A stretch of DNA of 64,000 bases from Arenicola marina (lineage: Eukaryota; Annelida; Polychaeta; Arenicolidae). The stretch is from NCBI GenBank assembly GCA_964019135.1, contig OZ025256.1, forward strand, positions 3,989,249 to 4,053,248, given 5' to 3'. Shown here in pieces: positions 464 to 58,128 of the stretch. Numbering within the stretch: position 1 is the first letter of the stretch; every line of letters begins with the position of its first letter. Made by a program: the position numbers and the translations under genes. The notes under the pieces were generated by a model, which saw only the letters and a list, made by a program, of their open reading frames with translations, ran no database searches and was not told where the DNA came from.

Positions 464-1361
464 TCAATGCTCTTCCGGCGTGTTGTTCTCCTCCCGCCAC
501 GTTAGGTTCATGTTGAGGGTGATGAAGCAGTAAATCTCAGTGACTTCCTCGATCTGAAATGGAACACGGACCCAGCGGGCAGACTTTGTACAAAGCATGG
601 CGACGAATGTGGGTCACATCTCTCAGTCGTTGACACAATACCCTGGATCATTGGTCAAATGTTTTTTTTGTAAGGAGACTGCAGTAAATGGGTTGCTGCA
701 TTATTCCACCTGTGGTTCGCTGGGCCAAGCCGCTTGCCGGTATAGATAAACAACTGATATGTAAAAGTCACATTATCAGATACCGGCCTTCGGGTTCGAA
801 CGAATGTCTATCTGAACCGCAAACGACCCAGGAAGGTTCCCCATAGTACACGATCGCCCGATGATAACCGCCGTCAAGCTTGTGTCGTACACGGCGCCAC
901 CCCTGCTGCTAGACAACAACCGACGCATGGCCCTGTCGCCATAGTTACGGGTATTATATAACTTTACTTCCAGAACTCCATAGAACGTGCAGCAAGTGCA
1001 TGGCCGCCTCTATAAATTAAGCATGACCCATTTAGTGGCAATTTAATTGATACATAGGATAGCTAACAAATATTAATTATAAACTCTGATCACAATAAAT
1101 CATCTACTCATTATGATATAGCAGTGAAAAAAAAATATTACGCCTCACGTCAGCACTTCACCCATCCCGCTGCAGATTGCTCAAGAACGTATAGCAGTTT
1201 ATAGGCGGTGTAAACTTCAGAGCTAACAAAACAAGTTCAAGGCATGGTTACATATACGGTATAGTGAAAACCCGTTGTTAAGGCCACATACGGGACTGAG
1301 CATGGATGGTCTCGTCAGCAAAACTTCCCCAATTCCGACATGTCTTTAACAACAGAGTTGC

Positions 1362-1417
<56 letters not shown>

Positions 1418-4400
1418 TAATTACGTGACCAAAGATTAAAATGTAGGCCTGCTTACCACTTTGGTCGTGGGTTTCCCCGCTCCGTGGCCAGATTTCGTGT
1501 CCACTCGAACCATGAGGGGGTTCGTCTGTAACATGGGTTTTGTCACCACTTAGAAACGTCGTGTCCTCAGAACATAAGATTTTAAAAAACTTAGATCACT
1601 GGCTTTAAAAAAAAAATTACCCGGTAGTACATGTGGTATTTGTTTTTTTGTTTTACTTCTGGAAAAAGAGACCTGACAACACAAGAAATAGCTGCAATAA
1701 TGTCAGGTCTGAGCATGTAGTGAATCGGCCATACATTTTCACAACGCACTACTAGAGTTCGGCAATCAGGTAGCTGACCTGCTGCTGCACAACGCATACC
1801 TTCTACTGAGTTCGGCAATAGGCTTGCTTACCTGTGTTGGCTCAACGCCCACTTTTTTCTGCAGTTCGGCAATAAACTTGAGAGAGTGAAGGGGGACAAC
1901 TCGGTCGTCATGGTCACCAGTCAACAACAGCGTGGCTGGATACTGAACACCCGGAGCCTGAGGAACCCGGATGTTGTGTAAGGGCGAGTACCTGCCAAAG
2001 AAGTATTTATATATTATTAAATGCAAGAACACATTATTGCAATGACAAGTATTAAAGAAAACTAGCATGACACAGAGGTCAACGTGCCAAATCGCTCGAA
2101 ACAGAGCACCTTAATTCAGGTAATGGTACAGGTAAAAGTTCATTTTGTACTGCTGGCCTTGGGCGCATAGTAAAACATATACAGTAAAACCACCCTTCCC
2201 CACCACCTCCCTAATCCGATCGCCTCATTAACTCGATCGATTTTGTTTTCAGTCCCGACGGTCGGCCAATACCTTAGTATTGCAACAGTATTCTCTAACC
2301 CGATCACCTCCCGACTCTGTAAATGGATCGATCATTTCCGTCTCAACCGCCATTTCATATTCCCGAAGTCGATCGGTTGTCGACTGGCGGTCCACACACC
2401 ACAGACGGGGTGGAACGATTAGAGTCTGATTGCAATTAGTAGAACACACCACATGCGGGGCGGGTAAAGCTTGTGCAGTTTAAGTCAGTCACGTCCTCGG
2501 CCGACTTAGAGAGGTTTCATTGTATACAGATTATGATATTGACACAATTAACTTAATTCTGAGAATAGCTTTGCGAAAACCGATCAGGGAGATTTGGTGC
2601 TTGGCAGATGAAGTTTCAGGTTTACGAGTTAATCCAGGTCATTAAAATAGCAGGAATAAACCAGTTCATTAAAAGACTCGTGAACACTTCTTCAGCATTG
2701 TTGCAGACGTAAGTTCAGCACCCGTAAATATGCAAATCTTTGTACAGAATTTAAACCTGCCATATACCCGGCTCCACATACCATGTTAATTACGTGCACA
2801 TACATGGAATCTAATTGGCCAGGACTCCAGGGCACTTTCGTCCGGAAACACTCTTTGAAGGCAATTTGAGCAAAAGCTAACCGCGTTCAATACTAACATG
2901 CTATTGGGTGACTAGAGGAAGTATTCGTCATGAATCCTCCATCTAGTTTGGTTGTACAATGTATATTCAGGACGATTTGGTCATATCGCGTCAATGGGAG
3001 AAGGAAGGGCAGAGCGGAGCCATGTCCCCGGGATAACCCCATACTCTTTGTGAAGAAGGGCATGGGATCTTCATCCTGTGACACGTGACCACACAAACAT
3101 GGCCACAGCGGGGCTTGAACCACCGATCCACGTGCCGTTAGGCTCTCATGTGGCCAGAACAGTCAAGGCGGGCGCTGTAACCCACTGAGCTATCGTGCCG
3201 GTCCCTCATTCCAATTAGGATAAAATCTAATAATTTGCATGGAGAAATCTAGGGGAAAATGTAGCAATAGCAAAGAAAGACCCACTTGATGAGCCACTCG
3301 AAGTCTTCTTTGTCGTCCGAGCAGCCGAAGTCCGTGGTCCACGCGTGGCCGATGGTGAACTTGTGGAAGCGAAGCATGTCCATAACCCTGCAACCCCGAC
3401 ACGACACTTTACTTCAATCACTTCAACACCAACATCAAGCATCAATATTATAGTTTCCCCATGTGAGTGGGGCCTATAGATTTCTGTCACAGTATGCTTT
3501 ACCATGTGAATAGGGCCTTCACGCACGCTACGGATTTTCTGTTTCGTTTATTCGTGCGTGCGTTATCGACAAGATCCTTTTTAAAAAATTACCTTCGTGA
3601 AACTATTTTATTGGCTTATCACCATTTGTTCGCTCAGGCAATGGAATGGAATGGAATGTTGGTGTTTTAGGCCACTTTTGTGCACATACAGGCTAAATTG
3701 GGCCAAGGAACCTCCCGAGACGATGAAGGATGAAGGAATGAAACATGCCCCAGATTAGGTGCCCGAGCCCGGATTCGAACCCAGGGCCTATTGATCTGCG
3801 GTCTAGTGCGCTAACCACTACACCAGGGAGGCCCCCCCTCAGGCAATGGCATTTGGGAAGAGAAATGCCGAACTCATCCCGCTTGTGCCATTCATGGAAT
3901 TTAAAATACAGGCCGTGGATTATAAAAGAGAAGCGACGGAGAAGTCCGGGCGCTGATTTATAAGAAGCTGCATTTATTACAGCAACTACGGTACACTTAC
4001 CCGACTTGGGCCACGGCGGCTCCGAACAGATCTGGCCGCTGATTTATACAGGCGGCCACTAGGAGGCCGCCATTGCTGCCTCCGTTCACTGTGATCCTAC
4101 AAAATGGTGACGTAAATACAACAGTGCATCTGGGGATACCCACAGTTGTCGTCTGCATATCAGAGCATGCATGAGTTTCTTGTGTCAAAATACACCCCCC
4201 CCCCACCAAAAAAAATACAAAAATTCAAATTGTTGTAGGGGTACTTTTTCTCGATTAAGAACACAAGTACCTCTTGTTGTTGGTGTATTTGTTCTCGATT
4301 AGGAAGTCTGGGGTAAGTACCTCTTGTTGTTGGTGTACTTGTTCTGGATTAAGAACACTGGGGTAAGTACCTCTTGTTGTTGGTGTACTTGTTCTGGATT

Positions 4401-7400
4401 AAGAACACTGGGGTAAGTACCTCTTGTTGTTGGTGTACTTGTTCTGGATTAAGAACACTGGGGTAAGTACCTCTTGTTGTTGGTGTACTTGTTCTGGATT
4501 AAGAACTCTGGGGTAAGTACCTCTTGTTGTTGGTGTACTTGTTCTGGATTAAGAACACTGGGGTAAGTACCTCTTGTTGTTGGTGTACTTGTTCTGGATT
4601 AAGAACTCTGGGGTAAGTACCTCTTGTTGTTGGTGTACTTGTTCTGGATTAAGAACTCTGGGGTAAGTACATCTTACTGTTGGTGTACTTGTTCTGGATT
4701 AAGAACACTGGGGTAAGTACCTCTTGTTGTTGGTCTACTTGTTCTGGATTAAGAACACTGGGGTAAGTACCTCTTGTTGTTGGTGTACTTGTTCTGGATT
4801 AAGAACACTGGGGTAAGTACATCTTGTTGTTGGTGTACTTGTTCTGGATTAAAAACTCTGGGGTAAGTACCTCTTGTTGTTGGTGTACTTGTTCTGGATT
4901 AAGAACACTAGGGTAAGTACCTCTTGTTGGTGTAATTGTTCTGGATTAAGAACACTAGGGTAAGTACCTCTTGTTGTTGGTGTACTTGTTCTGGATTAAG
5001 AACACTGGGGTAAGTACCTCTTGTTGTTGGTGTACTTGTTCTGGATTAAAAACTCTGGGGTAAGTACCTCTTGTTGTTGGTGTAACTGTTCTGGATTAAG
5101 AACACTGGGGTAAGTACCTCTTGTTGTTGGTGTACTTGTTCTGGATTAAGAACTCTGGGGTAAGTACCTCTTGTTGTTGGTGTAACTGTTCTGGATTAAG
5201 AACACTGGGGTAAGTACCTCTTGTTATTGGTGTAACTGTTCTGGATTAAGAACACTGGGGTAAGTACCTCTTGTTGTTGGTGTACTTGTTCTAGATTAAG
5301 AACTCTGGGGTAAGTTCATCTTACTGTTGGTGTACTTGTTCTGGATTAAGAACACTGGGGTAAGTACCTCTTGTTGTTGGTCTACTTGTTCTGGATTAAG
5401 AACTCTGGGGTAAGTACCTCTTGTTGTTGGTGTACTTGTTCTGGATTAAGAACACTGGGGTAAGTACCTCTTACTGTTGGTGTACTTGTTCTGGATTAAG
5501 AACACTGGGGTAAGTACCTCTTGTTGTTGGTGTACTTGTTCTGGATTAAGAACACTGGGGTAAGTACCTCTTACTGTTGGTGTACTTGTTCTCGATTAAG
5601 AACACTGGGGTAAGTACCTCTTGTTGTTGGTGTACTTGTTCTGGATTAAGAACACTGGGGTAAGTACCTCTTGTTGTTGGTGTACTTGTTCTGGATTAAG
5701 AACACTGGGGTAAGTACCTCTTGTTGTTGGTGTACTTGTTCTGGATTAAGAACTCTGGGGTAAGTACATCTTACTGTTGGTGTACTTGTTCTGGATTAAG
5801 AACACTGGGGTAAGTACCTCTTGTTGTTGGTGTACTTGTTCTGGATTAAGAACTCTGGGGTAAGTACATCTTACTGTTGGTGTACTTGTTCTGGATTAAG
5901 AACACTGGGGTAAGTACCTCTTGTTGTTGGTGTACTTGTTCTCGATTAGGAACACTGGGGTAAGTACCTCTTGTTGTTGGTGTACTTGTTCTGGATTAAG
6001 AACTCTGGGGTAAGTACATCTTGTTGTTGGTGTACTTGTTCTGGATTAAGAACACTGGGGTAAGTACCTCTTGTTGTTGGTGTACTTGTTCTGGATTAAG
6101 AACACTGGGGTAAGTACCTCTTGTTGTTGGTGTACTTGTTCTGGATTAAGAACACTGGGTTAAGTACCTCTTGTTGTTGGTGTACTTGTTCTGGATTAAG
6201 AACTCTGGGGTAAGTACCTCTTGTTGTTGGTGTACTTGTTCTGGATTAAGAACACTGGGGTAAGTACCTCTTGTTGTTGGTGTACTTGTTCTCGATTAGG
6301 AACTCTGCCGCCGACTGGAAGTCATCGAATACGTTCTGTTTGTTGGCCATAGTTCCGGCTTTGTGCCACGTTTCACCATACTCTCTGCAACAGAACGATA
6401 CTTGTATAGTTTCATTGGATGATTCACAAATATAGTCCCTGTAAAAGCGACTTGCAAATGCACTCTCTGCTTATCTCATCATAATGCCACCTGATATTTC
6501 AGTTTTAGTCAATAATTCGGCTGGTTGGTTGTATATTCAGGACGCTTTAACCACTTTTGGTGATATCGCGTCAATGGGAGAAGGAAGGGAGAGTGGAGCC
6601 ATGTCCCCGGGGGTAACCTCCTAATCTTTGCCAAGAAGGACATAATGTTGAATTCGAAGTTCTTGGGATTATGAGCTATTGTTGTTTTGGACCACTTTTG
6701 TGCACAAACTGGGCCAAGAAAGCTCACGGGATAATAATGTGGGGTTGGGTGAACTATGAGATGGACGCATAAGTGGACGGATGGATGAAAGGATGGATGG
6801 AATGGTGGATGGATGGATGAACAGACGAATGGATGGATGAACAAACGGATGGGTGGATGAAATGGATGAACAGACGGATAGATGGACGAATAGATGGATG
6901 GATGGACGGACGGATGGATGAATGGATGAACAGACGGATAGATGGACGGATAGATGGATGGATGGACGGATGGGTGGACAGTTGGATTGGACGTACCCTC
7001 CGCCCCTGATGTTGGGCACGGCCAGCACCCCCCCGAGGTGGTTCATGAAGACGAGGCGGCTGACGCTGAAGGTTGGGGTGATGGAGATGGTGAAGCCGCC
7101 GTAGCCGTAGAGCAGCACTGGGTGACTCCCGTCCAGCTTGATCCCCTTCCGGTGAACGATGAACATCGGGATCTTCGTGCCGTCCTTGCTCGGGTAGAAC
7201 ACCTGGACCGTCTGGAACTGACTGGCGTCCACATTCTTGACGGCGATTTGCCTGAAGATCTGGAAATAATAAAATTTATGAATGGAAATACGGCATTGGT
7301 ACTTTAGGGCTTCTTTGTGTTTGTGTAGATATAGGCGGCTGTAAGAGGAAAGTGGCCGCTCTGCATGGGATAATGAGACGCGCGGTCTGAAAAATAATCC

Positions 7401-10400
7401 ACAGATCCGAGGCTCGCATCCGGGTCTCTGGATCTAAAGCCAAGTACGCCGCCAAGGGAGCTACAGCGGTTTTCCAGACAATCTGACGGCGAGGCTATCG
7501 CGTTACGGGGCGTTATGTTTCACTATACCAAGCAAGGCAGGAGTAAGAACTTTTTTTATATTTTATTTTATTGCTTTCAACAGAAATACACATCAATGAG
7601 CGCAGATAGATACATCAATCACACACATACATTCTTTTTTTTTTTTTTTTTTTTTTTTTTTGGTTAAATATATATTTATTTCAATATCAATGTGGATAAT
7701 CCAACATTCTTAATGTAAGTCTATGAATTAAAAAGAACACTACAAATTGACGTGATAATATTTTAATTTATTGCAGTGTAAGGTAAGGTTCAGTGTAAGG
7801 ATACCTAGGCAATTTGCTTGCAGAATAAACTAATATAGATGTAGGAGATATACAAAGGTGTGAAGACAGTGAAGTGTACCAACCTCGGGCTCCATGACGT
7901 CAGTGGACACGTCACAACGGAAGATTGTGCCCGGAGTCACGAAAGACATGAAATTATAGAATATCTGAAAGAAAAAAGCGAAAAAATTATTTGGAGAAAT
8001 AAATATCGTTAAATAAAGTATTTAAGAAAAATATATTCGAAGATCTGCGGATTCACGAAAGAGCTAAACGCTAAATAAATTAAGAAAATATTTAAGAAAG
8101 ATATATTCCAAAAGATCTAGCTTCACAGAAACCGTCACAGCTACTACATAGCCAAACCGAGTTGCTTTCACTATTTCCAATTGCAGAGAGTGCTCGATGC
8201 GAATCGTGGGCGATATTGAAAGAATTTATGCGTTGCCAAAACTTTTCTTTCGGGCGACAGCGACATTGCCGTTATTGTAGCTTTCTCAGGGCAATTAAAC
8301 TAATAAATTCGCCAGAGACACTTCCAAAATGGCGCCTGTCACCTCAGTGTCCTTCCTCTTGCCGGAGTACCCCACGATACTGCCGATGTCCAGAGGTAGC
8401 GTCTTGATGACCTTCCCAGAGGTCAAATGAGCCACTTGTAGTACACTCTGGATGGGGTGTAGAAAGATGTGTTAGAGATATATAAATGCTCCTCGTCAAA
8501 ATCACCATAACGAGATCAGAGAGGCAACATCTAACAACATATAATCATTACTTAATAAAGTCGTATAAAACGACAGCTTCGGTATGTCAGTCGCCATAGC
8601 AACGCAGTCATAAAGCACTTTTTACATTTCTATACATACATCGTGCTTTGTGAATGTACTATTGACTCAGCATATCTTTAACGGTGTATAATCGGTGACT
8701 ACAAAGCACAATGCAGATCGGTGACACAGTCATGATTGGATGGTTGCAAAACGAAGGAGACTCCAGTATATATCATTTTACAATACGATCTATATGAAAT
8801 GGACCGAGAATTTAAGCAGGGTTTCGACATATCCAGACAAATTTAAATACGACACTGTTCGCACCAACAGAGGACATCGCTACAAGTGGATCTTCTGAAA
8901 TAACGGATACGGTTACAGGTAAATTTCACCAGATTTGTAGACAATCCGGTCTTTGATGAACATGCATCACGCATTCTGTCGACCATTCAAACCGTCATTT
9001 CAGCGGTCTCTACACCAACTAGAACAGCCTACCTTCACATCATGCAGGTAGCAGAGAACCAGCTTATCTTGGTTGACACAAGCGACCCACTCCAGCACGT
9101 CATGCTCGTGTTCAGGTACCAAGTCAACCCAGTTTTCCTGGAAGTAAAACACACCAGCAAATGTCATTCAATAGCTGAATCACCGAGCTACACCAAACAC
9201 AGAACTGTGCTTAAATAATAACTTTCTGTTAAAATGGCTCATGTTGTAATAATGAAAAATGTATATGAAAATGCTGTAAGTTAACACCTGTAAATGATTT
9301 TTCTTAAGACGTGTCTGATCGAAATCTATAGGCTCAAATTTATGAAGAGGGAAATCAGAATGATTTTTTTATAGAAATACCGTCCCTGTATTATACGGTC
9401 CCTGCATTACACAACTCCCTCCGTTGTACGGGCTTTCGCGGTGCACGGAATACTTTTACATGTCAAAGCCCCCTCATTATGCGAGTCCCTTGTAGAAATA
9501 GTCAAAAGGTATACAAAGGAACTTCAGATGGCTGCGGATTCTTACCATGTCCGGTTTGCTCAAGTCAATGTTGATTAGCTTGTATCTTGGCGAGTTCAAG
9601 TTTGTCTTGAATGTAAACACAGTTCCTTCATTGACCACGTACTGAAATAGACAGAAAGCGACACATGTATCTAATATAATAACCATTATAATTGACTGTG
9701 TATAAGCCGTTGTTTTCGCCACGATCTCGGACCGTTGATTAAGCAGTCCACGGCATTCCCAAAATACCGCCAAAAAAGATACTCGTTAAGCGCGAACGAT
9801 AATACAATATTGATTATTCTAGCTAACCATGCCAATTGTTATCAAGACTACAATATGGTGTTCAACACTCAGTGAAAAGCGAGTAAGAAGAGAATTTGTT
9901 GTACCTGATATTCAGCATCGAAGTTGTCTATGACCTTCACAAACGGCAAAATTCCTGAAAGAAAGCAAAGGAGAAATTCAAGTCGATCATTAAGAGAAAT
10001 TCGAAAAAATTGTAGAAAGTAATCACCTTGCGAAAATGTCTGCATATCTTCTGATGTAAGGAGAGATGAGTGTTTTAGGCATCCAGGACCACTGTGCAGT
10101 TATGGGGTAAATCATGCTAATGATTCCTATGTTCCGATGCATACGATACTCAAAAGAAACCAAAAATTAAATAAGCAAGTTATGGTATCGCTTTCCAATG
10201 TCAGGGAAGGAAATATATCATACTCTATTGATAGGCAAACTGCACAGACATATTTATAAATACTATAGCACGTGGCGACGAGCTATGTATAATGTATAAC
10301 ACACAAGGTCACCTGCTATACCGTCGGCGAGAGTTTCAAGGTCGCAGTAATACAGTCGGTTGACGTGGTCGCAACCCTCATAGACGCCGGCCACAAGATA

Positions 10401-13400
10401 GCGTCCGTCCTCACTCACCTCCACACCTCTACGATACGACACAACATCATCACAATCATTACAGTCAGCAAACTCACCTAGTGATCGTAGAACACGATTG
10501 CAAAATATATTTGATCTTGTGAGTGATGAGCTGGTCACTATATCTTTCATATGTTAGTTCATTAAATATCTTACCAGCAACGTACCATATGCCGATTATT
10601 TTACACTAAAATCAACTTAATGCAATTATAGATCATATTAACTTAATTAATGCGCGCATGATACTTAGGCGAACCACCGTTATGAAATGTTCGTAACATA
10701 ATCACTGACATTGCAATTGACTTCCCACTTGTACGGTGATGGCAATAACATTGTAAAACCCACCATCCGGTATTATAATATTCACCGGAATAGGTCTTAT
10801 GTACCAGGACATGAGTATAATCGATTTTGAAGCAAAACTGAAATGAAACATACTATTCCAACATCGAAAACCTACGTAATCCACTTAGGGTTGTCGGGCC
10901 ATTCGGCGCACAGGATATCTTCTGATTGCTTGGTCCCCAGCCTATGGTAGTAGAGCTTTTGATTCAGGTTAGAGGTCGTCTCGGTTCCATCCGCCTTCTC
11001 TTTTTCCTCCACCGGGTAGCTCTACGCAAATAAAAGATATGCATATGACATTGGTGCTGAGATTTGTGCTGAGATAAACCCATCTCGTACGAGAAGCAAT
11101 GTCATATGTATTTTCTCGCTCGAACCGCAGTCAAATTTCATCAGGAGAGGTGACAAATGGAATCTTTTCGAAAGTATCCAGTCTGGGAGTGTGAGATGGG
11201 TTTATCCCAGACCTGGTGTCACAATGGGCCGCAGTCCAGTGAGTGCCGGAATAACACCAGATCTTGGTGTTTTGGCCACTTTGTGGGCTACCTAGGGTCA
11301 AGGCACATTACGAGACAACGAAATGGGTCTAAACAAATGCTGACGACACCAAAATATATTTTAACAGTAAGATCCATCCACCATGTTAGATTTTACAGAA
11401 GAATATTCAACAACAAAGTAAGACCTGAATAATACATGAGGTATGCTTAAAAGCAGGACCCTAACGTGGAAGAAATAAGACGGGTCTGACAGCTACAGAA
11501 CAAACAATGACATATATATCATACAGGGATTTAATCATGAAGAAATACATCATTAAAACCAGAGTACCTACATTAATGATAAGACACATGTAATCACTAA
11601 CTAGTCTTACATTGTAGAAAAGTCCTTTATGATCATGAGTCCAAGCCATGCTAGAAAACTTCACGTTTTCCAATTTGTCCGGCAAATCTTCTCCAGTTGC
11701 AACATCCTTGAACTGGAAGAAAATTTAAAAATAATTATTTTAATCGAATTAGAAGAATCACTGAAAGAAGCAACGAAATACGTAATCTTTCAACATAGTA
11801 TATCCATATTCTACGGGGTGGTTGGTTGTTTATTCAAAACGCTGTAAACACTTTTCTGCATATCGCGTCAATGGGAGAAGGAAAGGAGAGTGGAGCCATG
11901 TCCCCGGGGGTAACCCCCTACTCTTTACGAAGAAAGACATAGGATCTTTATCCTGCGACCACACAGCCATGGTCACAGCAGGGCTCGAACCACCGATCCA
12001 CGTGCCGTGGCCAGAGCACTCAATGCGAGTGCTCTCGCCCATTGAGCTATCGCGCCGGCCCCTATATTCTACGTGAATCGCCAGGACAGTGTGTGTTACC
12101 ATGAGTAACAATGGTAGGCCTGTAAAATGTTCCATCGCACAACAGTCATTAGCGTGTTTTCTCTCGTCTGCAGAATTGACATATTCATAAAATTTATCAT
12201 TTTGGTGCCTTTGGAGAGCCTGTAAATATTATTTTATTACCCATTTTCGTTTATTGTTAACTGTTTAATATTTGTTATCAAAAATAGCTAGATCCATGGA
12301 ATGATGAAAATAGAGCAGCCATCAGAGACTGATTAATGCCGCCCCGATTTACGGCAATACAAAGCACGTACGTCACTTCAGCTTTACGTCACGTCATAGG
12401 GCCACAGCACCCGCCCAATGACCGCAAACAAATACCTTATCAACAAGTCTTGACTTACAGGTTAGTTGGTTGGTTATTCCGGACGCTTTAACCACTTTTG
12501 GTCATATCGCGTCAATGGGAGCAGGAAGGGAAGAGTGGAGCCATGTCTCCGGGGTAACCCCCTACTCTTGGCAAAGAAAGACATGGGAGGCCGTTAGGCT
12601 CTCAGGTGGCCAGAGCACTCAAGGCGAGCGCTCTAGCCCACTGAGATACCGGGCCGGCCCCTGAGTCACAGTAGTGGACAAACATCTTACATTTATAGTG
12701 ACCCAGTCACTGCCTGCTTCGCTGAGGCCATATGCAAAGAAGTTGCCGTCTTCAGAGTAGGCCGTGCCCCGTATGGACGTGGTTCCGTCTTTTGATAACT
12801 TGTTGGGGTCCAGGAATGTTCGTGCCTCGCCGTCCAGAGAGTCTTGTACGAACAGGACGCTTCAAGGGCAAAGGACATACGTATTGATTTGTAACAAATT
12901 CATATAACTCCATTATAGGGAGGGTACTAAAATAACAACAAATAATACGCAAGTTCATCGTCCTATGCAAACGGGGGGATGCTAACCAACAATTCAATTA
13001 GTGAATCAATATTTATTAAAGTCGTGGCTCTTACCGACGTCTATTTGGTTGGTTTTAAGTATGAAGCTTCAATCTTTATAGGTTTACAGCGTAAAAGGAT
13101 CAAGGTAGATAGGAGCCATTTCTCCGGGAGTAACCCCCCTACCCTTTGCACATACAGACATGGAATATTTATCTTGCACAAAGATATTTGCACAGGGGGG
13201 ATTCGAACTCAAGGGCTGCCTTAACATGGCACACTAGACTATAGCCAGAAAGTGCCATCCACCAGGCCACAATGAACTGAAACTTACAACAGAGCTACTG
13301 CTATTATCAAAGAATGTTGTGTTACCTTAACTGAATCGCCCAAAGTTTAATAAGGGACTGACCATTTGATATTGAGGGGGGGGGGGGGGGGAGGTTAAAA

Positions 13401-16400
13401 AAAAAATTCTGAACATTCTTCACGCCAAAAAATGTATAGCTAGATAACTGTAATTAGAAAAGTGCTTCAATAAGAACCGCAAACATTTCTCAACTTTTCA
13501 CGATGGTCACAACAAATTAATCTGATGGGCGCAAGATTAATTTTGCCAAAAAATTAATTTGCCGGGGTTGGGTGGTGGGGTATAATCCGACCAGTTTCTA
13601 CCTTTGATTTTGAAGTCCCGTGTTGTGGTAGTAGAAGTAACGAGAACCACGTTTCGATGGGCAGCTGTATTTGGGATAATCCCACATCTCTGTAATCCTG
13701 CAACAAATAGTCGGACACAAGTGCTATAGTCCAAATTATTGGCTTTATTGAGTTGTTCATGTTAAATAATAATCATATAAAAAACATTACGTCCGTTGAC
13801 ATTACGTCGTTGACATGACGTCTGTTGACATTACGTCCGTTGACATTACGTCCGTTTACATTAAAATGTCCGTTGACATTAAAATGTCCGCTGACATTAA
13901 ACAGTCCGTGGACATTAAGTCTGTTGACATTGCGTCTGTTGACATTACGTCTGTTGACATTACATCCATTGACATTAAAAAGTCCGTTGACATTTGTTCC
14001 TTCACGCTTGGTCCTTTGGCCCTACGTTCGTTGAAATTGAGTAGCGTTTTTGCTAGTGCCTGACAATCTCAGTGACCTGATTTTGCTTGCGTTATTTGTA
14101 TCGAGGTTGAGGCTTGAGGTCCAATGTTAGAATGTCAATATTTACCTTGAAGATAAACACATGTAATTACACGGGGCGCCAAGGCCATTCATGTGTCGTG
14201 CACAGTCATCTCAGTGTGAGTCACTGGCAAAGTTTATTTGCACAAAGTCAGAGTATTGAATGACAAACCTTTGATGTAGTTTCTCCTTGTGGACACAGCT
14301 ATTCAGGTAGGGTTCAGTAACAGCATTTTGGGCTTCGACGAAAGCTATGGTTTCATCACTATCAGCGTCTTCCAGCCACCGGTAAGGATCTTCCACCTAA
14401 GGAATCAAGTTGATCAGAGACGATATTAAAAAAAAACATGATATGGTAAGAATAGCGTCAACTGATCTTTTTAGAACACATAGGTGAACAAAATCTCTGG
14501 ATTCAGAGCCTCAGTTTCAAGATTTTACAACTGTATCTGTTGATAAACCATAAACCAATGACAAGTTATTGAGATATTGCTGAGGGATGGGACATATGTG
14601 GAGTATGCAAGCCTAAATGATCTCTGTTACAGGGCTGCACAGTTTTCTTGGGTTCTATTTCCAGGTTACGGGCTTTGGGGACAACAAAAAAATGTGCTAA
14701 AATTATAATATAGCTGAAGGTAACACACAGATCTCTCTATAATGCATGTGGTCTGTTCGATGAGACCATTGGAAACATTGTATTTTGAGGCAAATATATA
14801 CATATGCCTGCGAACATATAAGCTAGCTGCATACAGACATGTGGTTGAAGACGATTATTATGGAAAGCAAAAGGGAAAACCCCCATCGCATGCGGAGATG
14901 CCCCCTCTGTATATATCATAATCTAATAATGGCACCATACAAACACATGGAGTGGACAGGGTCTCAATATCATGTACAGTGCATTAATTGCAACTTCTAT
15001 TTGTCAGCATTGCATTACTTCTATTTGTCAGCATTGCATTACTTCTATTTGTAAGCATTGCATTACTTCTATTTGTCTGCAAAAAAGTTGCAATAAACTG
15101 ACGGTGCGATTATTCAAAGTTGGTGATTTCGACGGGTCAGAACGGACTACATATACATGTATGTACACATATTAGGTTTATATGCACTTCAGATACTCAA
15201 GTACACGCTAGACATTCATTGTAAAACACTGCCCATCATTTGAAATTTCTGACTTATTTGGACTATGACCTCTGTAAACCATCTCCAAAAAGCATCTTCC
15301 ACAGATGAGACTTTGCCAATGCACCTTGGGATCATGTTTTTGTTGTTGTCATCCTTTTGATGTAAAACTGAGTCCCTATCTGCAATCAGAAATCTGGGAA
15401 CTGCTGGGATATCTGCACTTTCAAGACTTGATCGCAAAAAGAAGCTGTAATTGGTGCCAGAAGACTTTATAGGGGATAGCAGCATCTTATATCTTATTAC
15501 CTCTCATATCACAGAGAGGAACAAACAGCCAAACAACAAATGCCAATCATTCAAACGCAAAGGACTAAAATAATAATAAAGCATATAGCTTGTGTTTGTT
15601 GGTGCAGACTGTTAATCCAGCGATAACAATTAAGCTATAAAGGTGTTAAGTGTCAGCTGATAGCACATTGTCTCTATATGCCCGCTAACCATGCTAACAA
15701 CACCTGGGTTTCGCCAACACCTGGGATGTTGCCATTATCTGACGTTCCTGAACATTCTCAGGTAAATTTGTTTTGCAATTAAGCGGAATTTGCGATCAAC
15801 CGAACTTGTTAACATGGGGATGTATAGAAAATTGCGTTTAGATTTGAGATTTGTTGCGATTAAGCAGAAGTTGCGATTAACTGAAGTGTGATTAAGTGGC
15901 ATGTACTGTATTTTATATAAGGGGGTCATCTCTGCATGAGGGGGGGGGGGATTCGAACATGTGATATCCCACACAACACCTTAGCCCGCCTGACACTGTC
16001 ACTTGTGAAACAGTTTAAATTCAGTTCAGGACAGCTTTAGCCAATTTTGTGTGTGACTAAAGTGAAGGCAAATAACCACCAAAAGGTATTAGCAGAACAG
16101 GCTGCTGATGCTATAGCATTGACATAGAACATAGGTATCCCTGTCTTGTCACGTCTGGATCAGATCCTGTAGTGATAGGAGCACAGTAAACATGGTAAAT
16201 CTACAGATAAAGAATGAAGACAATAGATTAATTACCACTATTATTATAGTGAGGTTTAGTTGCATATTAGACTACCTAAGCAATTAAATCTTTTGTCACT
16301 TATCAAAATTGTAGCTGTTAAGCTTGCTATACATAATCTTTCCGATGCCAAGCTAGTGCTTTAGCATATGCTATATCTATAAATCACATATAATTCTTAT

Positions 16401-19795: not shown

Positions 19796-22700
19796 ATGAA
19801 CACTGTGACTGATGTCCTGGTCAGGCTCTGAACACTGATTGATGTCCTAGTCAGGCTCTGAACACTGTGATTGATGTCCTGGTCAGGCTCTGAACACTGT
19901 GATTGATGTCCTGGTCAGGCTCTGAACACTGATTGATTTCCTGGTCAGGCTCTGAACACTGTGATTGATGTCCTGGTCAGGCTCTGAAGACTGTGATTGA
20001 TGTCCTGGTCAGGCTCTGAAGACTGTGATTGATGTCCTGGTCAGGCCCTGAACCCTGTAAGTGATATCCTGGTCAGGCTCTAAACACTGTGATTGATTTC
20101 TTGGTCAGGCTCTAAACACTGTGATTGATGTCCTCATCAGGCTCTGAACACTGTGATTGATGTCCTGGTCAGGCCCTGAACATTGTGATTGATGTTCTGA
20201 CTAGGCTCTCAACTCTGATTGATGTCCTGGTCATGCTCTGAACACTGTGATTGATGTCCTGGTCTGTCTCTGAACACTGTGAATGATGTCCTGGTCAGGT
20301 TCTGAACACTGTGATTGATGTCCTGGTCAGGATCTGAACACTGATTGAAGTCCTGGTCATGCTCTGAACATTGATGTCCTGGTCAGGCTCTGGACACTGT
20401 GATTGATGTCCTGGTCAGGATCTGAACACTGTGATTGAAGTCCTGGTCATGCTCTGAACACTAATTGATGTCCTGGTCATGCTCTGAACACTGTGATTAA
20501 TGTCCTGGTCAGGCTCTGAACACTGTGATTGATGTCCTGGTCAGGATCTAAACACTGATTGATGTCCTGGTGAGGCTCTGAATACTGTAATTGATGTCCT
20601 GGTCATGCTCTGAACACTGTGATTGATGTCCTGGTCATGCTCTGAACACTGATTGATGTCCTGATTAGGCTCTGAACACTGTGATTGATGTCCTGGTCAG
20701 GCTCTGGACACTGTGATTGATGTCCTGGTTAGGCTCTGAACACTGATTGATGCCCTAGTCAGGCTCTGATCACTGATTGATGTCCCTGTCTGACTGAACA
20801 CTGTGATTGATGTCCTGGTCAGGCTCTGGACACTGATTGATGTCCTGGTCAGGCTCTGAACACTGATTGATGTCCTGGTCTGACTCTGTACACTGTGAAT
20901 GATATCCTGGTCAGGTTCTGAACACTGTGATTGACGTCCTGGTCAGGATCTGAACACTGTGATTGATGTCCTCGTCAGGCTCTGAACACTGTGATTGATG
21001 TCCTGATTAGGCTGTGAACACTGTGATTGATGTCCTGGTCATGCTCTGAACACTGTGATTGTTGTCCTGGTCATGCTCTGGACACTGTGATTGATATCCT
21101 GGTCAGGCTCTGAACACTGTGATTGATGTCCTGGCCAGGCTCTGAACACTGTGATTGATGTCCTGGTCAGGCTCTAAACACTGTGATTGATGTCCTGGTC
21201 AGGCTCTGACCACTGTGATTGATGTCCTGGTCAGGCTCTGAACACTGTAATTGATGTCCTGGTCAGGCTCTGACCACTGTGATTAATGTCCTGGTCAGGC
21301 TCTGACCACTGTGATTAATGTCCTGGTCAGGCTCTAAACACTGTGATGGATGTCCTGGTCAGGCTCCGAACACTGTGATTGATGTCCTGGTCATGCTCTG
21401 AACACTGTAATTGATGTCCTGGTCAGGCTCTGACCACTGTGATTAATGTCCTGGTCAGGCTCTAAACACTGTGATTGATGTCCTGGTCATGCTCTGAACA
21501 CTGTAATTGATGTCCTGGTCAGGCTCTGACCACTGTGATTAATGTCCTGGTCAGGCTCTAAACACTGTGATTGATGTCCTGGTCAGGCTCTGAACACTGT
21601 AATTAATGTCCTGGTCAGGCTCTGACCACTGTGATTAATGTCCTGGTCAGGCTTTAAACACTGTGATTGATGTCCTGGTCAGGCTCCGAACACTGTGATT
21701 GATGTCCTGGTCATGCTCTGAACACTGTAATTGATGTCCTGATCAGGCTCTGACCACTGTGATTAATGTGCTGGTCAGGCTCTAAACACTGTGATTGATG
21801 TCCTGGTCAGGCTCCGAACACTGTGATTGATGTCCTGGTCATGCTCTGAACAATGTGATTGATGTCCTGATAAGGCTCTGAACACTGTGATTGATGTCCT
21901 GGCCAGGCTCTGAACACTGTGATTGATGTCCTGGTCAGGCTCTGACCACTGTGATTAATGTCCTGGTCAGGCTCTAAACACTGTGATTGATGTCCTGGTC
22001 AGGGTCTGAACACTGTGATTGATGTCCTGGCCTGGCTCTGAACACTGTGATTGATGTCCTGGTCAGGCTCTGAACACTGTGATTGATGTCCTGGTCAGGT
22101 TCTGAACACTGTGATTGATGTCCTGGTCAGGATCTGAACACTGTGATTGATGTCCTGGTCATGCTCTGAACATTGATGTCCTGGTCAGGCTCTGGACACT
22201 GTGATTGATGTCCTGGTCAGGCCCTGAACATTGTGATTGATGTTCTGATTAGGCTCTCAACTCTGATTGATGTCCTAGTCATGCTCTGAACACTGTGATT
22301 GATGTCCTGGTCATGCTCTGAACAATGTGATTGATGTCCTGGTCATGCTCTGAACACTGTGATTGATGTCCTGATTAGGCCATGAACACTGTGATTCATG
22401 TCCTGGTCATGCTCTGAACACTGTGATTGATGTCCTGGTCAGGCTCTGAACACTGTGATTGATGTCCTGGTCAGGCTCTAAACACTGTGATTGATGTCCT
22501 GGTCATGCTCTGAACACTGTGATTGATGTCCTGGTCATGCTCTGAACACTGTGATTGATGTCCTGGTCATGCTCTGAACACTGATTGATGTCCTGATTAG
22601 GCTCTGAACACTGTGATTGATGTCCTGGTCATGCTCTGAACACTGTGATTGATGTCCTGGTCAGGATCTAAACACTGATTGATGTCCTGGTGAGGCTCTG

Positions 22701-38747: not shown

Positions 38748-39127
38748 AGGTCGTCGCGACTCATTTACCTGGCCATGTTGTTTTCTAACATGGCGACCTA
38801 TTCGCCAGGGTCTGGGATGAAATGCACACATTATCTGCATGTGTAATGACATATACTATTACCTGTTTAAGCTTTCGCTCTTTTCAGTTTTAACTGAGAA
38901 ATATATCTGCGAGGAGCTTTTGATTAATCGCGACGCATTCCATGTAAGTAGTTATTACGCGAGAGACGTTTATGTTTCTTGGGGTGCCACCCTCGGCTCA
39001 CTGAATATCGTTATTACGCGATACAGCTTAACCTGTTGCTGCCTGGTCAATGTCTTACATGCTTATGATAGATAGGGAATCTCTGTCGGGTCATTTAAGT
39101 TGTTCCTGCTCTTGCGCGTTCTGTGTT

Positions 39128-43987: not shown

Positions 43988-44027
43988 CTGAAACACATCA
44001 CAAGATAAACGAATGTTACAGCGATAT

Positions 44028-51375: not shown

Positions 51376-51381
51376 AATAAA
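51376..51381 (+). terminator. Candidate UQCC1 polyadenylation signal
   Basis: AATAAA about 540 bp after the UQCC1 stop codon. Confidence 0.4.
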
Positions 51382-51811: not shown

Positions 51812-51817
51812 TTTATT
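51812..51817 (-). terminator. Candidate PSMF1 polyadenylation signal
   Basis: AATAAA on the minus strand about 450 bp after the PSMF1 stop. It and the UQCC1 signal lie about 430 bp apart, consistent with non-overlapping convergent 3'UTRs. Confidence 0.35.
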
Positions 51818-52265: not shown

Positions 52266-55200
52266 TCACATGAACATGTCGTCATAGCCCGGCATGGGGA
52301 GGTGGTCCGGGTCGGGTCTGTGGGAGGGAAGAGGAACGGTAAGACGATAAACCATAGTTCACAGAAGAAAAAACGGATTAGCAACTGCACAGCGGATGAA
52401 CACGCAATGGCGGATCTACGGTACTTCTCTCAGGGCCTGAAACTGCACACCGCGTGAACATGCAATAGCGGTTCTACGGTACTCAAACACCGGCTTATCC
52501 GGGCCAGCAACTGCACAGCACATGAACACGCAATGGCGGTTCTAAGGTACTCAAGCGCCGGCCTCTCCGGGCCAGCAACTGCACAGCGAATGAACACGCA
52601 ATGGCGGTTAAGCGCGGCATCTCCGGGGCAGCAACTGCACAACGGATGAACACGCAATGGCGGTTCTACGGTACTCAAGCACCGGCCTCTCGGGGCCAGC
52701 AACTGCACAGCGGATGAACACGCAACGACCGTTCTACGGTACTCCTCTCAGGGCCTGAAACTGCACACCGCGTGAACAGGCAACGGCGGTTCTACGGTAC
52801 TCGGGCGGCCGGAAACGCTATTACAATACATAGAAACACTCCAATTCTGAATCAAGTCCTGCCAATGTCAGAAATCTTTTTCATGTCCTAACTTTTACCC
52901 CGTACTTAAAAGCTCGATAAATAGAAATCCTCTGCATTAAAGCGAACATATCGCTTTGTCATATCACGATATGCGAACACGATTTCCACTGTAAGTTTTG
53001 TTGTCATCCCACGTCATCTCTGACTGGTAGTATGGACAAGAGACAAATAAATATATATATCTAGCTGTGTGTTTATATCGAGCTTGAAGGGTTGTATTCA
53101 GCATGGGGAATGTCTATATATAACACATGTTGGTAAGAGCTTCATCTTTCGTACCATTATAAAAGCAAAATACTGTGCAACAATTATATACAACGCATGG
53201 AACAATTGATTTTGAAATGCTGTAACTCCTTAGTATATAAATGTTGTATATCTTTATATTCACAAACGCACTGGCATTGATGTACACACACACAAACACA
53301 CGCGCCGCCACTTGTTAAACCGCAATAAGCCCTTTGAGGTTACGCGGCAGCAAGCCTAATCCCCACCCTTCACCCACTACCCCATCAATGTAATCAGAAA
53401 GCCACTTACCCCGGTCTCCGGCCTCCTCTGGGGCCGATGTTACCACCTCTGTCGATGTCTGGGGGTCCAAAGGGGTCGAATCTAGCGCCCGGGGGGACGG
53501 CTCCTCTGGGGAAGGCAGTGGAATGTAAGTCTCAGGTGTCCATACACAACCTGTCCATAGGCTAATAGAACCAGCGGGAAAATGGGGCTTCCTTGCGTAT
53601 TACGTCATCAAAACTGGGATATTGATTGCTGCCGCGTTTTTGCCTTTTTACTTCAACATTTAATAACATACGCTGTTCAAAGCGTTAAATAAATTCTAAA
53701 ATAAGATCCACAAATGTGTCAAGTAAATGAAAAATAATTTGAGTTCTGATAATAATAGCCGGACACCCCGGTCTAATAAACCTGTTACCTTGGTAACCGA
53801 CCGGGCCCTCCGACATTAGGATCCATGTCGGGGACTCCGCCTGACCTAAGTGGGTCAAAGATCATGCCACCGCCGCCACCTCCAATTCCAAATCCAGGGT
53901 CAAGGTCACCCCGGCCGAGGGATCGCAGCGGATCGTCCGGATCGTGCCTGAAAGCGAATAAATTCGGTACGTTGTCCATTTCAAGGTATCTAATTTACAG
54001 TGGTCGGTGCGTCGTTAATTTCAACTTATCTACTTTACATTGATTCATGTGTCGCCAATTTCATTGCATATATTTCACTGATTGATGGTGAGGGGGAGGG
54101 GCTCTCTGTGGTTAACGAGGTTACTGGTTACCATTGATGGTGAGAGGGAGGGGCTCTCTGTGGTTAACGAGGTCACTGGTTACCATTGATGGTGAGAGGG
54201 AGGGGCTCTCTGTGATCAACGAGGTCACTGATTACCATTGATGGTGAGGGGGAGGGGCTCTCTGTGGTTAACGAGGTCACTGATTACCATTGATGGTGAG
54301 GGGGAGGGCTCTCTGTGGTTAACGAGGTCACTGATTACCACTGATGGTGAGGGGGAGGGGCTCTCTGTGGTTAACGAGGTCACTGATTACCATTGATGGT
54401 GAGAGGGAGGGGCTCTCTGTGGTTAACGAGGTCACTGATTACCACTGATGGTGAGAGGGAGAGGCTCTCTGTGGTTAACGAGGTCACTGATTACCATTGA
54501 TGGTGAGGGGGAGGGCTCTCTGTGGGTACCGACGTCACTGATTACCATTGATGGTGAGATGGAGGGGCTCTCTGTGGTTAACGAGGTCACTGGTTACCAT
54601 TGATGGTGAGAGGGAGGGGCTCTCTGTGGGTACCGAGGCGGGCCGATCCGAAGCGGGTCATCATCGCGAGATGGTTGACCACGATGGCCTTGACCTCTAT
54701 CTGGCGACCTTGACCGTGAAGAATTTCCAACGCTTGCTTGGGTAGATGAAGTTTTCGTGCTTTTTTTAAACCCATCGAGCAAATCGTTTTTGATACGCTG
54801 TTGCAATTTCTCCATGTTCTTGTAACAACTTCAATAGAATAATAAAACGAAAAAAAAGGGTGATTAACGTTGACTTCGAAACATGCTCTTCTTATCATAA
54901 GCTTTAGCACGTAAAAAGAAGACATTATGAATCTAATATAAAAATTTAGGTTGATTTTGGTTCATTCTAATAAGCTTTCTTGTATACAATATCAGATAAT
55001 GATATATCTAGAGAAAAAACAGAGATACCGGTACCAAGTACCATTATTTGACATGAGTGTTGGTCATGTACCCTTCATAAACATGATCAGCAAAGTTTTT
55101 TTAAAGAAAGATTATTATAAGTGTTACCAGTAAAATATTATGTTCAGTTTAATTTAAATAAATGTATTACCCAGAGAAAGAATTGAGGTCTCCGCCAAAG

Positions 55201-58128
55201 TATTCAGATGTTTCAAAAGTCATCAATGCAACTTTTTCATCTTTAACTCGCTGAAACACAAAAAAGTTAAGTACATTAGTTGCAGTACATAAAGGTTAAT
55301 TTAATTTTAAATTTAACAAAATGGTTAGAGAGTTCAAATTTATTCTGGTATAAAAATAAGAATAACATTCTAAATCTCATAGAAAGACTTAATCATGTGG
55401 TGACATGCATTCTCATAACATTTATTCTTTATTCCTGGAATATAATTCGTATTCATGTATACATAGCAATCTTACATACTATAAAGTGTACCAATTGACT
55501 TTAATCTATTTTGACAACTTTCAATAAAAGCTTAGCAATCTTACCATGAAGTGTACCAATAGACTTGAATCCATTTTGACAACTTTCAATAAATGCTTAG
55601 CATTCACATTATTGGCACTGTCTTTTGGACAATACTGGAGAGTGTAGACACCATGTGAGGCATTCCAGCCAGCTGGGAGCATTTCTGTTGCGCTACAGCT
55701 TGATTCATCTTCACTGATCTGTAAAAAAAAAGACATTTTCAGAATACCAAAGAAAAGTCCATACATTATTATATATTGTATACATCACTGCTAAGAATGG
55801 CATATGGTTTACTTACCATAATTTCAGGTTTTTCCTCGTGGCCGAGGGGTGTGACTTATACACTGGTGCAACTTATACACTGGTGCAACTTATGCACTGG
55901 TGCAACTTATGCACTGGTGCAACTTATATAACATTGAGACTTGACTTGAGGCTCAAGTCTAAATATTTCAAAAAATTGGTGGGTGCGACTTATACACTGG
56001 TGAAACCTATACCCCAGAAAATATGGTACTAGTAAATTTTATTACTTTCTATTTTTAAACCAATTCTCCTAAAAGAGTTATATATGCAAGATTTTCTTTC
56101 AATTACCAATAAAAATTCATTTCAATGAGTACCGTAAAGTGCCTTTTTGAAGCCGTGGCTACTATTAGAAAGTTGCATGATGCACTTTCCGGGTTTGACT
56201 GCAAAGTTGCAGTGCAGCTATAAATACGACCTTTGGCCGATTGTGGAGGGGAGTTGAAATACGAACATTGATGGTGTTGCCGAAATAATTGTGCGCATCA
56301 TAATGTCATCATAACGTCATCAGTGTAATATGTGACAGCTGCTGTCAGGGACTAGAGGGCAGGGGGGATCTTGAGAGAGAGGCCAAAGACCAAGTGCGGC
56401 TTATAATATATCCTCAAACAAACTATAGTTCCGGTAGGTTACTCTGGCTAGAGAGAAACATAGTACTGGGTAGGCGCGACAGTGATTCATAAATATGTAG
56501 TACATGCCAGGAGAGCGGCTGAGCCCACCACTAGTGTGACACTTGATAGAAGGTGCACAAAAAATATTCCGAATCTGTATAGGGTCTACAGTCAAAGTCA
56601 TAACTGCTGTAGATACACGTTTCGGCCCATATTTTCTGCGAATTTGCCCTGATCACTCTAAAAATCCCTGATATGAGAAAACAACACTAGACCATTTTAA
56701 TGATATCAAACTTACGTGTGTAATGCGATGTTATGCTTTTTTATGACACAAAGAATATTTCTCCATACTGACACGCAATTGGCAGAAAATGCTCTGTCGC
56801 CAAAATACTAAAGCCCGCTTCATAAAATGATGGTTGCCATGGCACCGAACATGCTTTGAACAATACATGCTCTTTATTTATACCAGCCACGAGGATGCCA
56901 TGGCAACACCCTATAGAACCTTTTATTGTCTGTGATTTAGTCTATTTGCGAAAGTGTGTCTGCTGCCAATGGAGTGTCAGCATGGAGAAATATTGTTTGT
57001 GTCTTAAAAGAGGATAACATCGCAGTACAAATGTAAGTTTAGTATCATTAAAATGGTCTGGTATTGCTTTCTCACGTCAGTGATTTTGAGAGTGGTTGAG
57101 ACAAATTCGCGGAAAATATAGGCCGAAACGTGTATCTACGGCCTTTATGACTTTGATTTTACTATACTACTATAGTCAAAACGGAAACTCTCCGGACATC
57201 GAAATTTACGAATTATTTGTTTCCTCTACGAGTTGAGGACGAAATCTATGCATATACCTTACCTATAAACTGAATAATTGTTTATCTGATCTGCAGTTCG
57301 ATTCCTATCCTCACAATACATGACCTGCCATGCTATTTAATAGAGCAGACGATGTTGTTTTTATCCTTCTCTTGTCAGTCGCGCAAATGTAAAGGTCATC
57401 CAAATGCCAACTGATTGGTTCAAAATCTAGGTCAGGTTGGCAAAGTCCATCGCATCATTTGACGAGGGTACTGAGGTTGAATGCAATGGTCAGGGGGTAG
57501 TAGTTGATCTGCTGTATCCACTTTTGCAGGAGGTGTTTGCTTTCGTGCAATGAATTCAAGTTTAACATCAATTGATACTAAACTGATTTCAATTTTACTC
57601 TGGGTCACTTTAGGCATGCGTCAATGCTTAAAAACAGAGTTAATGATAAAACACTACAAAGGAATTCAAACCTGTGACCCCTTACAAAGATGTAAATGGT
57701 ATCGCCCAGTGACGTCACAGTAAACAGTGAATGGCGCCATCAACATGATCAAGCCGATCGGCTGCTTCGAAGTGCAGCAAAGCAACATTTGCTTATAGTT
57801 TATTTGCAAGTGTCTCAGGAAACGTGAGTTGACATACACTTATTAGGCCCCGATTTGATGTTCACACAGAAAGTATTTTTTTCTTCGAATCCGTGAATAT
57901 TTTCTCGTAAACGCCCGTAAAACGGGAAATTTCGTTGTCCGGAGTCGCGGAGAGTTTCCGTTGCGACTACAGTCTTTAGTGAGCTTATATCGAACTTACC
58001 ACATCACCCACACCGATGCACTGGAAGTCACTGCTGATAACACTCCAGTGTAAGCAGCAGACAATAGCGTCTTCCTCACATTGGAACTGATTTTTGATGC
58101 AGGAAAATAATATTTCCATCCCCGCCAT
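52266..58128 (-). CDS. PSMF1: Proteasome inhibitor subunit PI31, 7 exons, complete
   Basis: PI31 binds the 20S proteasome and the F-box protein FBXO7; it inhibits 20S in vitro and acts as a proteasome adaptor in cells. Exons in transcript order: 58000-58128, 55545-55718, 55171-55250, 54598-54828, 53789-53947, 53410-53505, 52266-52317. GT-AG throughout, 921 nt, 306 aa (human 271). The N-terminal FP domain covers about residues 1-140 (start MAGMEILFSC; LPAGWN motif). The C-terminal half is proline/glycine rich with DPLRIGPP, GGMIFDPLRSGG, GAVPPGARFDPFGP and PDPDHLPMPGYDD. The final residues are DDMFM where vertebrates have DDMYL, so the HbYX-type proteasome-binding end is present with Phe for Tyr. 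Introns 2 and 4 carry junction-derived repeats. Confidence 0.95.
52376..52805. repeat. About 68-bp minisatellite, 6 copies
   Basis: Units contain GCAACTGCACAGCGGATGAA, CACGCAATGGCGGTTCTACG and a GCACCGGCCTCTCCGGGCCA segment, with deletions between copies. It sits in the last PSMF1 intron, about 60 bp upstream of the final acceptor. The unit does not contain exon sequence. Confidence 0.88.
54079..54637 (-). repeat. Junction-spanning minisatellite (mirage-like), PSMF1 exon 4 and intron 4, 11 x about 52 bp
   Basis: On the gene strand the exon ends ...CACAGAGAGCCCCTCCCTCTCACCATCAATG|GTAACC, written here in pieces: CACAGAGAGCCCC, TCCCTCTCACC, ATCAATG|GTAACC. Ten further copies of that exon end plus donor follow in the intron, each with CAGTGACCTCGTTAACC as linker. 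The copy near 54,500-54,540 keeps GGGTACCGA, an exon-specific variant, so the intronic copies came from the exon. Period is 51-53 bp. Reading past the true donor gives TGG TAA, an immediate stop. Confidence 0.95.
55466..55600 (-). repeat. Two-copy tandem duplication spanning the PSMF1 exon 2 donor
   Basis: Copy 1 (55535-55600) contains the last 56 bases of exon 2 (...KHLLKVVKMDSSLLVHFM) and the donor ATG|GTAAGATTGC. Copy 2 (55466-55534), inside the intron, repeats the segment with about a dozen differences, including TTATTGAAAGTTGTCAAAAT and GGTACACTT, and keeps a donor-like TAT|GTAAGATTGC. Period 66-69 bp. Confidence 0.9.
55815..56029. mobile_element. Small TIR element with 17-bp internal repeat
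   Basis: Ends TACCATAATTTC and GAAAATATGGTA are imperfect inverted repeats. The interior includes a 17-bp tandem repeat of CTTATACACTGGTGCAA (about 55856-55930) and a related GCGACTTATACACTGGTG. It resembles hAT-type non-autonomous elements seen in many animals. It lies in PSMF1 intron 1. Confidence 0.5.
56587..57160. mobile_element. Long palindromic (foldback) element
   Basis: The left arm (about 56587-56846) and right arm (about 56893-57160) are inverted copies. Shared strings include GTAGATACACGTTTCGGCC, ACCATTTTAATGATA, AATATTTCTCCAT and GGTTGCCATGGCA. The loop is about 45 bases. Arms of about 265 bp, no coding capacity. Same architecture as the element at 16716-17409 but unrelated ends. 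It lies in PSMF1 intron 1. Confidence 0.8.
57169..57974. mobile_element. Non-autonomous element with about 45-bp TIRs
   Basis: The left end (57169-57210) with ACGGAAACTCTCCGG and CGAAATTT is matched inversely at the right end (57927-57974; GAAATTTCG, CGGAGAGTTTCCGT, GACTACAGTC). 806 bp. It directly abuts the preceding foldback element, and its interior shows no transposase. The right end lies about 26 bp from PSMF1 exon 1's donor. Confidence 0.6.

Follow-up and report, generated by a model that had tools for sequence, protein, structure and literature searches.

Tandem arrays spanning exon-intron junctions recur in a gene region of the annelid Arenicola marina

Tandem arrays that run across exon-intron junctions are a recurrent trait of the genes in one region of the Arenicola marina genome. 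Five of them lie in the window, that is the whole stretch of 64,000 nucleotides of contig OZ025256.1 analyzed here, and belong to PREP (prolyl endopeptidase), to an IBR-domain gene, and to PSMF1. In all five the junction falls inside the array, and the repeated unit is made by a part of the exon end, the splice site, and a part of the intron. The repetition of the arrays itself is far beyond chance. The arrays are very probably minisatellites of the type called mirages in amphioxus and exon stuttering in chicken, and this assignment holds with or without a bias of array birth towards junctions.

The original prediction, made from the bare sequence of the window, listed five junction-seeded repeats of 2, 3, 3, 11 and about 41 copies in three unrelated genes. 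Tandem Repeats Finder (TRF) assigns to them 1.9, 2.6, 2.3, 10.8 and 41.7 copies, each array contains a junction, and the three genes are those modeled above, so that both statements stand (Table 1). The largest of the five arrays is found at the donor of PREP exon 14, where the unit includes 38 exonic and 12 intronic bases, and the array occupies nearly the whole of a 2171-bp intron.

Arrays were called by TRF, and statistics refer to arrays with a period of at least 18 and a score of at least 80. PREP and PSMF1 proteins were used in tblastn to locate the exons of these two genes, those of the IBR-domain gene were placed by open frame and Pfam matches, and homologues of NPC1 and SMCHD1 served as guides for the models beyond the window. 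The assembly measures 867 Mb in 762 contigs, the longest of 77 Mb, and the window region resides on a contig (C9) of 43.4 Mb. The survey sample is a 284-kb segment made by the window and 220 kb of neighboring DNA, with five gene models and 84 introns. Twenty-two junctions of SMCHD1 and NPC1 that looked doubtful, both those bearing arrays and those free of them, were reset by hand from the sequence, and a few weak ones were left unchanged. Between models 31 and 32 of SMCHD1 the intron is long, and exons have probably been missed in it. A gene coding for leucine-rich repeats (LRR), which has no homologue-based model, a duplication at SMCHD1 exon 21 which received no TRF call, clusters of matches that fall on array copies, and a single, weak NPC1 match were kept outside the statistics. 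An extra donor copy is one that retains the GT and differs in no more than 4 of 20 bases. Copy numbers are given as assembled, in one assembly.

Nine more spanning arrays were identified in the adjoining SMCHD1 (six arrays) and NPC1 (three arrays) genes, ranging from two copies to 430 extra donor copies, as expected from the recurring process that had been proposed for this lineage. Overall, 14 of the 63 TRF arrays in the 84 introns span a junction, 10 at donors and 4 at acceptors. SMCHD1 exon 21 features in addition a near-identical two-copy duplication, with copies 114 bp apart, the LRR-coding exon carries a 40-bp array at its donor, and a neighboring open frame without Pfam match terminates in another array, which like the LRR one is not counted in the statistics. 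Two candidates, the NPC1 exon 5 donor and the SMCHD1 exon 34 acceptor, were dropped as array junctions on reading the sequence, where both junctions proved misplaced.

The direction of copying, from exon to intron, can be read in the repeats. The exon is recognized in SMCHD1 orthologues of other phyla, which also align weakly with the array copies (best E value 0.003); the exon is therefore the source, and by this comparison the exon copy is to be regarded as the ancestor of the array copies. The incursion into the exon is shorter than one period in all 14 TRF-called spanning arrays. In the PREP exon 14 array, two bases which distinguish the exon occur together in copy 1, again at the far end of the array in copy 41, and in the interior in copy 8 alone; copies 15 and 42 carry one of the two. 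Since exon-type bases are kept at the array ends, and are nearly absent inside, the interior has mostly been homogenized, in line with the earlier claim that later copies homogenize. The old arrays of PREP exon 17 and PSMF1 exon 2 hold the junction 20-mer, with up to 4 mismatches allowed, only at the exon edge itself; the second copy at PREP exon 17 retains CAG/GTCAGC, the slash marking the junction.

A plausible history of the arrays would start with the tandem duplication of about 30–115 bp, including the exon edge and the start (or the end) of the intron. Slippage or unequal exchange would then amplify the repeat towards the intron, and inner copies would homogenize, with both array ends lagging. 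The outermost copy would stay the real exon edge, under selection at the protein level, and splicing would use the exon-proximal site and remove the remaining copies as intron. Since the outermost copy is the selected edge, the other copies would be tolerable only if the proximal site is used. Both the mutational mechanism and the accurate use of the proximal site are what we infer from the array sequences.

Arrays contribute heavily to the introns of the region. The 63 arrays make 58,904 of the 125,274 intron bases (47%) of the five genes, and junction-spanning arrays 31,727 (25%), more than half of which come from one 18-kb SMCHD1 array. Arrays account for more than half of the length of 17 of the 84 introns. 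That repeats of this kind can fill an intron, as originally suggested, is thus borne out. Arrays cover 88,162 of 284,000 bp locally, and 22,118 bp of a total of 50,000 in five pieces of 10 kb picked arbitrarily from other contigs; two of these pieces (contigs C3 and C4, at 5 Mb) are wholly made of minisatellite arrays. That spanning arrays are so frequent in an annelid suggests that introns may grow by this route in any genome with a strong minisatellite turnover.

Whether junctions are special was assessed against two junction-blind models, in which either one seed unit was placed uniformly in non-array intron (null 1), or whole arrays were placed (null 2). In the 84 introns, 10 donors are spanned versus 3.4 expected by null 1 (P = 0.001) and 2.8 by null 2 (P = 0.0001), and at two other TRF cut-offs the 10 donors compare with 3.3 and 2.9. 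In the 29 modeled introns of the window, 4 donors are spanned versus 1.2 expected (P = 0.024), and 1 acceptor versus 1.2 (P = 0.73). Outside the window, donors are 6 versus 2.2 (P = 0.017; null 1) or 1.7 (P = 0.004; null 2), and acceptors 3 versus 2.2 (P = 0.37) or 1.7 (P = 0.24). An about 3-fold donor excess in this region is therefore likely. Array edges are also unevenly distributed. On the donor side the final 60 bases of the exon hold 2.06 edges/kb, the 60 bases that follow in the intron 1.62, and the deeper intron 0.51–0.92; on the acceptor side the exon holds 0.92 edges/kb, the 60 intron bases directly before it 2.55, and the deeper intron 0.66–1.16. Edges crowd near exons at both sides, and incursion into the exon exceeds chance at donors only.

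Several results weigh against a bias towards junctions. Acceptors show no excess (4 versus 3.4 expected, P = 0.44, by null 1; versus 2.8, P = 0.30, by null 2), and donors do not differ significantly from acceptors (P = 0.18). The region in which the donor excess was tested is also where it came to notice; 6 of the 10 donors lie outside the window. Moreover, junctions are less often repetitive than intron interiors: a junction-centered 24-mer has a nearby copy at 9 of 84 donors and 4 of 84 acceptors (junctions before correction), versus 13–18 of 82–84 positions located 72–240 bp inside introns, and none at 72–96 bp inside exons. The junction bias of the original prediction is thus found in part. 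Its proposed check on the distance from donors, run in the 284 kb, gives edges 2–4 times denser at exon ends before donors than farther in; the exon side of acceptors and the occupancy of junctions relative to interiors do not follow.

Genome-wide, triplets of a donor 9-mer at 24–53 bp spacing were counted, as a stand-in for a survey of junctions. Counts are of matches rather than arrays, and large arrays dominate them: CAGGTAAGT yields 1,857 triplets versus 445 for the reversed motif (singles 14,053 versus 5,841), MAGGTRAGT 7,443 versus 1,815 (singles 47,279 versus 26,180), the permuted control RAGTMAGGT 4,731 and its reverse 2,290 (singles 26,195 and 29,500). Triplets per single, subject to the same reading, amount to 0.157 for MAGGTRAGT, and to 0.069, 0.181 and 0.078 for the controls, from which the donor motif does not separate. 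Within the 284 kb, none of four 9-mers has at least 3 exact copies in any array; the shorter donor motif AGGTRAG reaches at least 3 copies in 2 arrays, and three controls do so in 0, 1 and 2.

These data bear on the strongest alternative, which competes with a donor bias and leaves the assignment to the mirage type untouched. Arrays may arise anywhere in non-coding DNA, blind to junctions, and some would straddle a junction by chance. This is an appreciable possibility, though it falls short of an even one. It is consistent with the large share of intron bases residing in arrays, with the number of spanned acceptors, with the low occupancy of junctions, and with the genome-wide donor triplets per occurrence, a ratio of matches that falls within the control range. 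It does not account for the donors, in excess by both null models, outside the window and at the other cut-offs, nor for the crowding of edges in the 60 intron bases next to an exon (1.62 and 2.55/kb versus 0.5–1.2 farther in). The opposite proposal, that tandem duplication in this lineage actively favors 5′ splice sites, through breakage coupled to transcription or splicing at exon ends for instance, and that exon edges are a main source of intron growth, is tentative and in our view rather unlikely; a donor bias, deduced from the sample of one chromosome region, is unproven. If true, exons would be renewable seeds of intronic satellites, and single introns would offer to the spliceosome hundreds of near-identical donors, only the exon-proximal one keeping the frame. 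Array-edge density and placement tests could decide on junction seeding in any annotated genome.

Many of the copies, not all, keep their AG/GT, and copies of acceptor arrays also retain splice signals in some cases. The donor 9-mer is identical in 34 of 39 inner copies at PREP exon 14, and in 406 of 430 copies at SMCHD1 exon 22. Copies could therefore be imagined to act as alternative donors or acceptors regulating isoforms, as described for human IFI6, and the many intact 9-mers agree with such a role. Against it, among the 672 extra donor copies of 11 donor events a single one would serve in frame without meeting a stop, and PREP exon 17 and PSMF1 exon 2 have lost any copy within the mismatch limit, although the former still shows the donor sequence given above; functional multi-donor arrays are thus very unlikely. 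With a single usable copy among 672, the choice of the proximal donor matters. Inner donors look usable and nearly none keeps the frame; hence either the exon-proximal site would win almost always, or transcripts using inner sites would be lost. SMCHD1 exon 22, followed by 430 similar donors, offers a natural test of 5′ splice-site choice.

The exact length of tandem arrays is hard to assemble, but a long-read assembly artefact is most improbable as the origin of the arrays, which vary in unit, age and direction and hold copies with ordered variants, and old decayed arrays are not read errors. Introner-like mobile elements, or other dispersed repeats inserted at junctions, would also give intronic copies with splice sites, but can be practically dismissed, as units are built from the gene's own exon edge and differ at each locus, and introners are near-identical elements dispersed among unrelated introns, whereas a 171-bp piece of the PREP array, the one unit searched, matched its own array only in the 867 Mb (the search skips very common words).

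Table 1. Genes, exons and tandem arrays of the window, and junction-spanning arrays of the adjoining genes. Positions are those of the window.
Feature	Position	Strand	Repeat unit and copies	Junction base	Basis or remark
PREP (prolyl endopeptidase) gene	464-17682	minus			tblastn, open frames, Pfam; 464 = stop
PREP exon 17 donor array, decayed	1749-1874	minus	53 bp x 2.3	last exon base 1832	TRF
PREP exon 17	1832-1991	minus			tblastn
PREP exon 14 donor array	4230-6307	minus	50 bp x 41.7	last exon base 6268	TRF
PREP exon 14	6268-6384	minus			tblastn high-scoring segment pair and splice sites
IBR-domain gene, read as RNF217-like	34328-38748	plus			open frame and Pfam
IBR-gene exon 3 acceptor array	36443-36564	plus	46 bp x 2.6	first exon base 36548	TRF
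IBR-gene exon 3	36548-36748	plus			open frame extending the IBR protein
Intronic array, begins 13 bp past IBR-gene exon 3 donor	36761-36896	plus	33 bp x 4.1		TRF
PSMF1/PI31 gene	52266-58128	minus			tblastn; Pfam PI31_Prot_N, PI31_Prot_C; 58128 = start
Array beside, not across, PSMF1 exon 5 acceptor	53964-54063	minus	40 bp		TRF
PSMF1 exon 4 donor array	54081-54638	minus	52 bp x 10.8	last exon base 54598	TRF
PSMF1 exon 4	54598-54828	minus			tblastn; Pfam
PSMF1 exon 2 donor duplication	55477-55602	minus	65 bp x 1.9	last exon base 55545	TRF
PSMF1 exon 2	55545-55718	minus			tblastn
SMCHD1, two 3′ exons	about 63378-63575 and 63742-63913	minus			gene runs on outside the window
SMCHD1 exon 6 donor array			75 bp; 34 extra donor copies
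SMCHD1 exon 8 donor array			35 bp; 41 extra donor copies
SMCHD1 exon 14 donor array			33 bp; 99 extra donor copies
SMCHD1 exon 18 acceptor array			91 bp
SMCHD1 exon 22 donor array			42 bp; 430 extra donor copies		18 kb
SMCHD1 exon 30 donor array			96 bp; 4 extra donor copies
NPC1 exon 16 acceptor array			70 bp
NPC1 exon 16 donor array			77-89 bp spacing; 15 extra donor copies
NPC1 exon 17 acceptor array			32 bp; two copies

Other features of the window are worth reporting. The intron after PSMF1 exon 4 is almost entirely made of two arrays (together 53964–54638), the 52-bp one across the donor and the 40-bp one, which ends about 17 bp from the next acceptor. A 14.3-kb satellite with a 32-bp unit and about 451 copies (19797–34066) lies between the PREP and the RNF217-like coding regions, and no modeled junction falls inside it. 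The first modeled coding exon of the RNF217-like gene has a GC donor at 35428 (AAG/GCAAGT). An Rfam scan of the window gave no match above the cut-offs.

The relationships of the sequence were analyzed through its genes. In the PREP tree the window sequence groups with Lamellibrachia and two further sequences (support 91/92, at an open, unstarred fork), and Owenia branches elsewhere. PREP is 70–71% identical to Branchiostoma, which is no closer than Lingula or Lamellibrachia; on this identity and the tree position an origin of the sequence from Branchiostoma (amphioxus), considered since mirages occur there, was rejected. Lamellibrachia SMCHD1 shows the highest identity among the 120 matches listed (48%, over 52% of the query). 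Among the NPC1 matches listed, Helobdella, an annelid, reaches 37% and does not exceed the molluscs; the top identity, 43%, belongs to a further sequence. In the mitochondrial contig (C762) nad3, nad2, cox1, cox2, atp8 and cox3 follow in this order on one strand, cox1 being identified by Pfam and the others by eye, an order which we take to agree with that of annelids.

Some observations concern the rest of the assembly. Kinase matches in the small contigs C330, C443, C465, C504 and C652 contain in-frame TAG or TAA, and no TGA, as if TAA and TAG were read as amino acids, and may denote a ciliate-like contaminant or symbiont. Many of 122 kinase matches fall in contig C3, between roughly 14 and 57 Mb, as open frames of comparable length, which looks like a large local gene expansion; many kinase matches look single-exon, and kinase loci form no part of the survey sample. 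Five kinase matches of equal score, about 8.5 kb apart, are found at C5:5402476–5437356, probably as a gene array of recent tandem origin. On C9, at about 4.18–4.26 Mb, a long ankyrin-like frame and a companion membrane-protein frame, both named by eye, are each present in several similar copies arranged in tandem.

Arrays of this sort are known from amphioxus, chicken and human; no report of them in annelids was found among open-licence papers, which were mostly searched without annelid-directed terms. According to PMC3087553 and PMC3902484, amphioxus mirages occur in Adh3, the globins BflGb6 and BflGb9, troponin C and PGBD5, have units of 10–160 bp, number 6 and 3 copies in two BflGb6 haplotypes, and have been linked, as a proposal, to intron gain. 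As described there, they are minisatellite-like tandem duplications across 5′ or 3′ exon boundaries, many copies having splice signals, as are the arrays reported here; they share also the concerted evolution inside and the exclusion at cluster boundaries, seen here in the PREP exon 14 array only. Undisturbed normal splicing and instability in length and in somatic tissue also count among the marks of the amphioxus type. Mirages are reported there from single cephalochordate genes, whereas the present arrays reside in a non-Branchiostoma genome, reach 430 extra copies, occur at 16 supported loci in 284 kb, and were tested against chance. In chicken, a recent report (PMC12954441, Genome Biol Evol 2026) describes 'sequence stuttering' or 'exon stuttering' in 115 genes and 236 introns, and demonstrates intron length polymorphism; 190 of the 236 introns, out of 5,572 dot introns, belong to the GC-rich dot microchromosomes. 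Amphioxus is mentioned in that report only in a cited title. There, too, the edge of a coding exon is copied with its donor or acceptor through the adjacent intron, and many introns are full of imperfect repeats, but the region analyzed here has an ordinary GC content (0.355–0.533 per 2 kb in the window) and is set on a 43.4-Mb contig, not on a GC-rich microchromosome.

In the human IFI6 (6-16) gene a minisatellite at the end of an exon repeats the splice donor, and this is the likeness to the present arrays; downstream units are used as donors, giving several mRNAs (Turri 1995, as cited in PMC4526556), whereas here nearly no inner copy would keep the frame. In the Rogers model, as cited in PMC3087553, introns arise when AGGT proto-splice sites are duplicated in tandem. 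Both instances have in common that a stretch carrying splice signals is tandemly duplicated, but here an existing intron is enlarged from its edge. The arrays of A. marina are the same kind of object as amphioxus mirages, chicken stuttering, and the IFI6 donor minisatellite; new are the lineage, the scale, and the test for junction bias.

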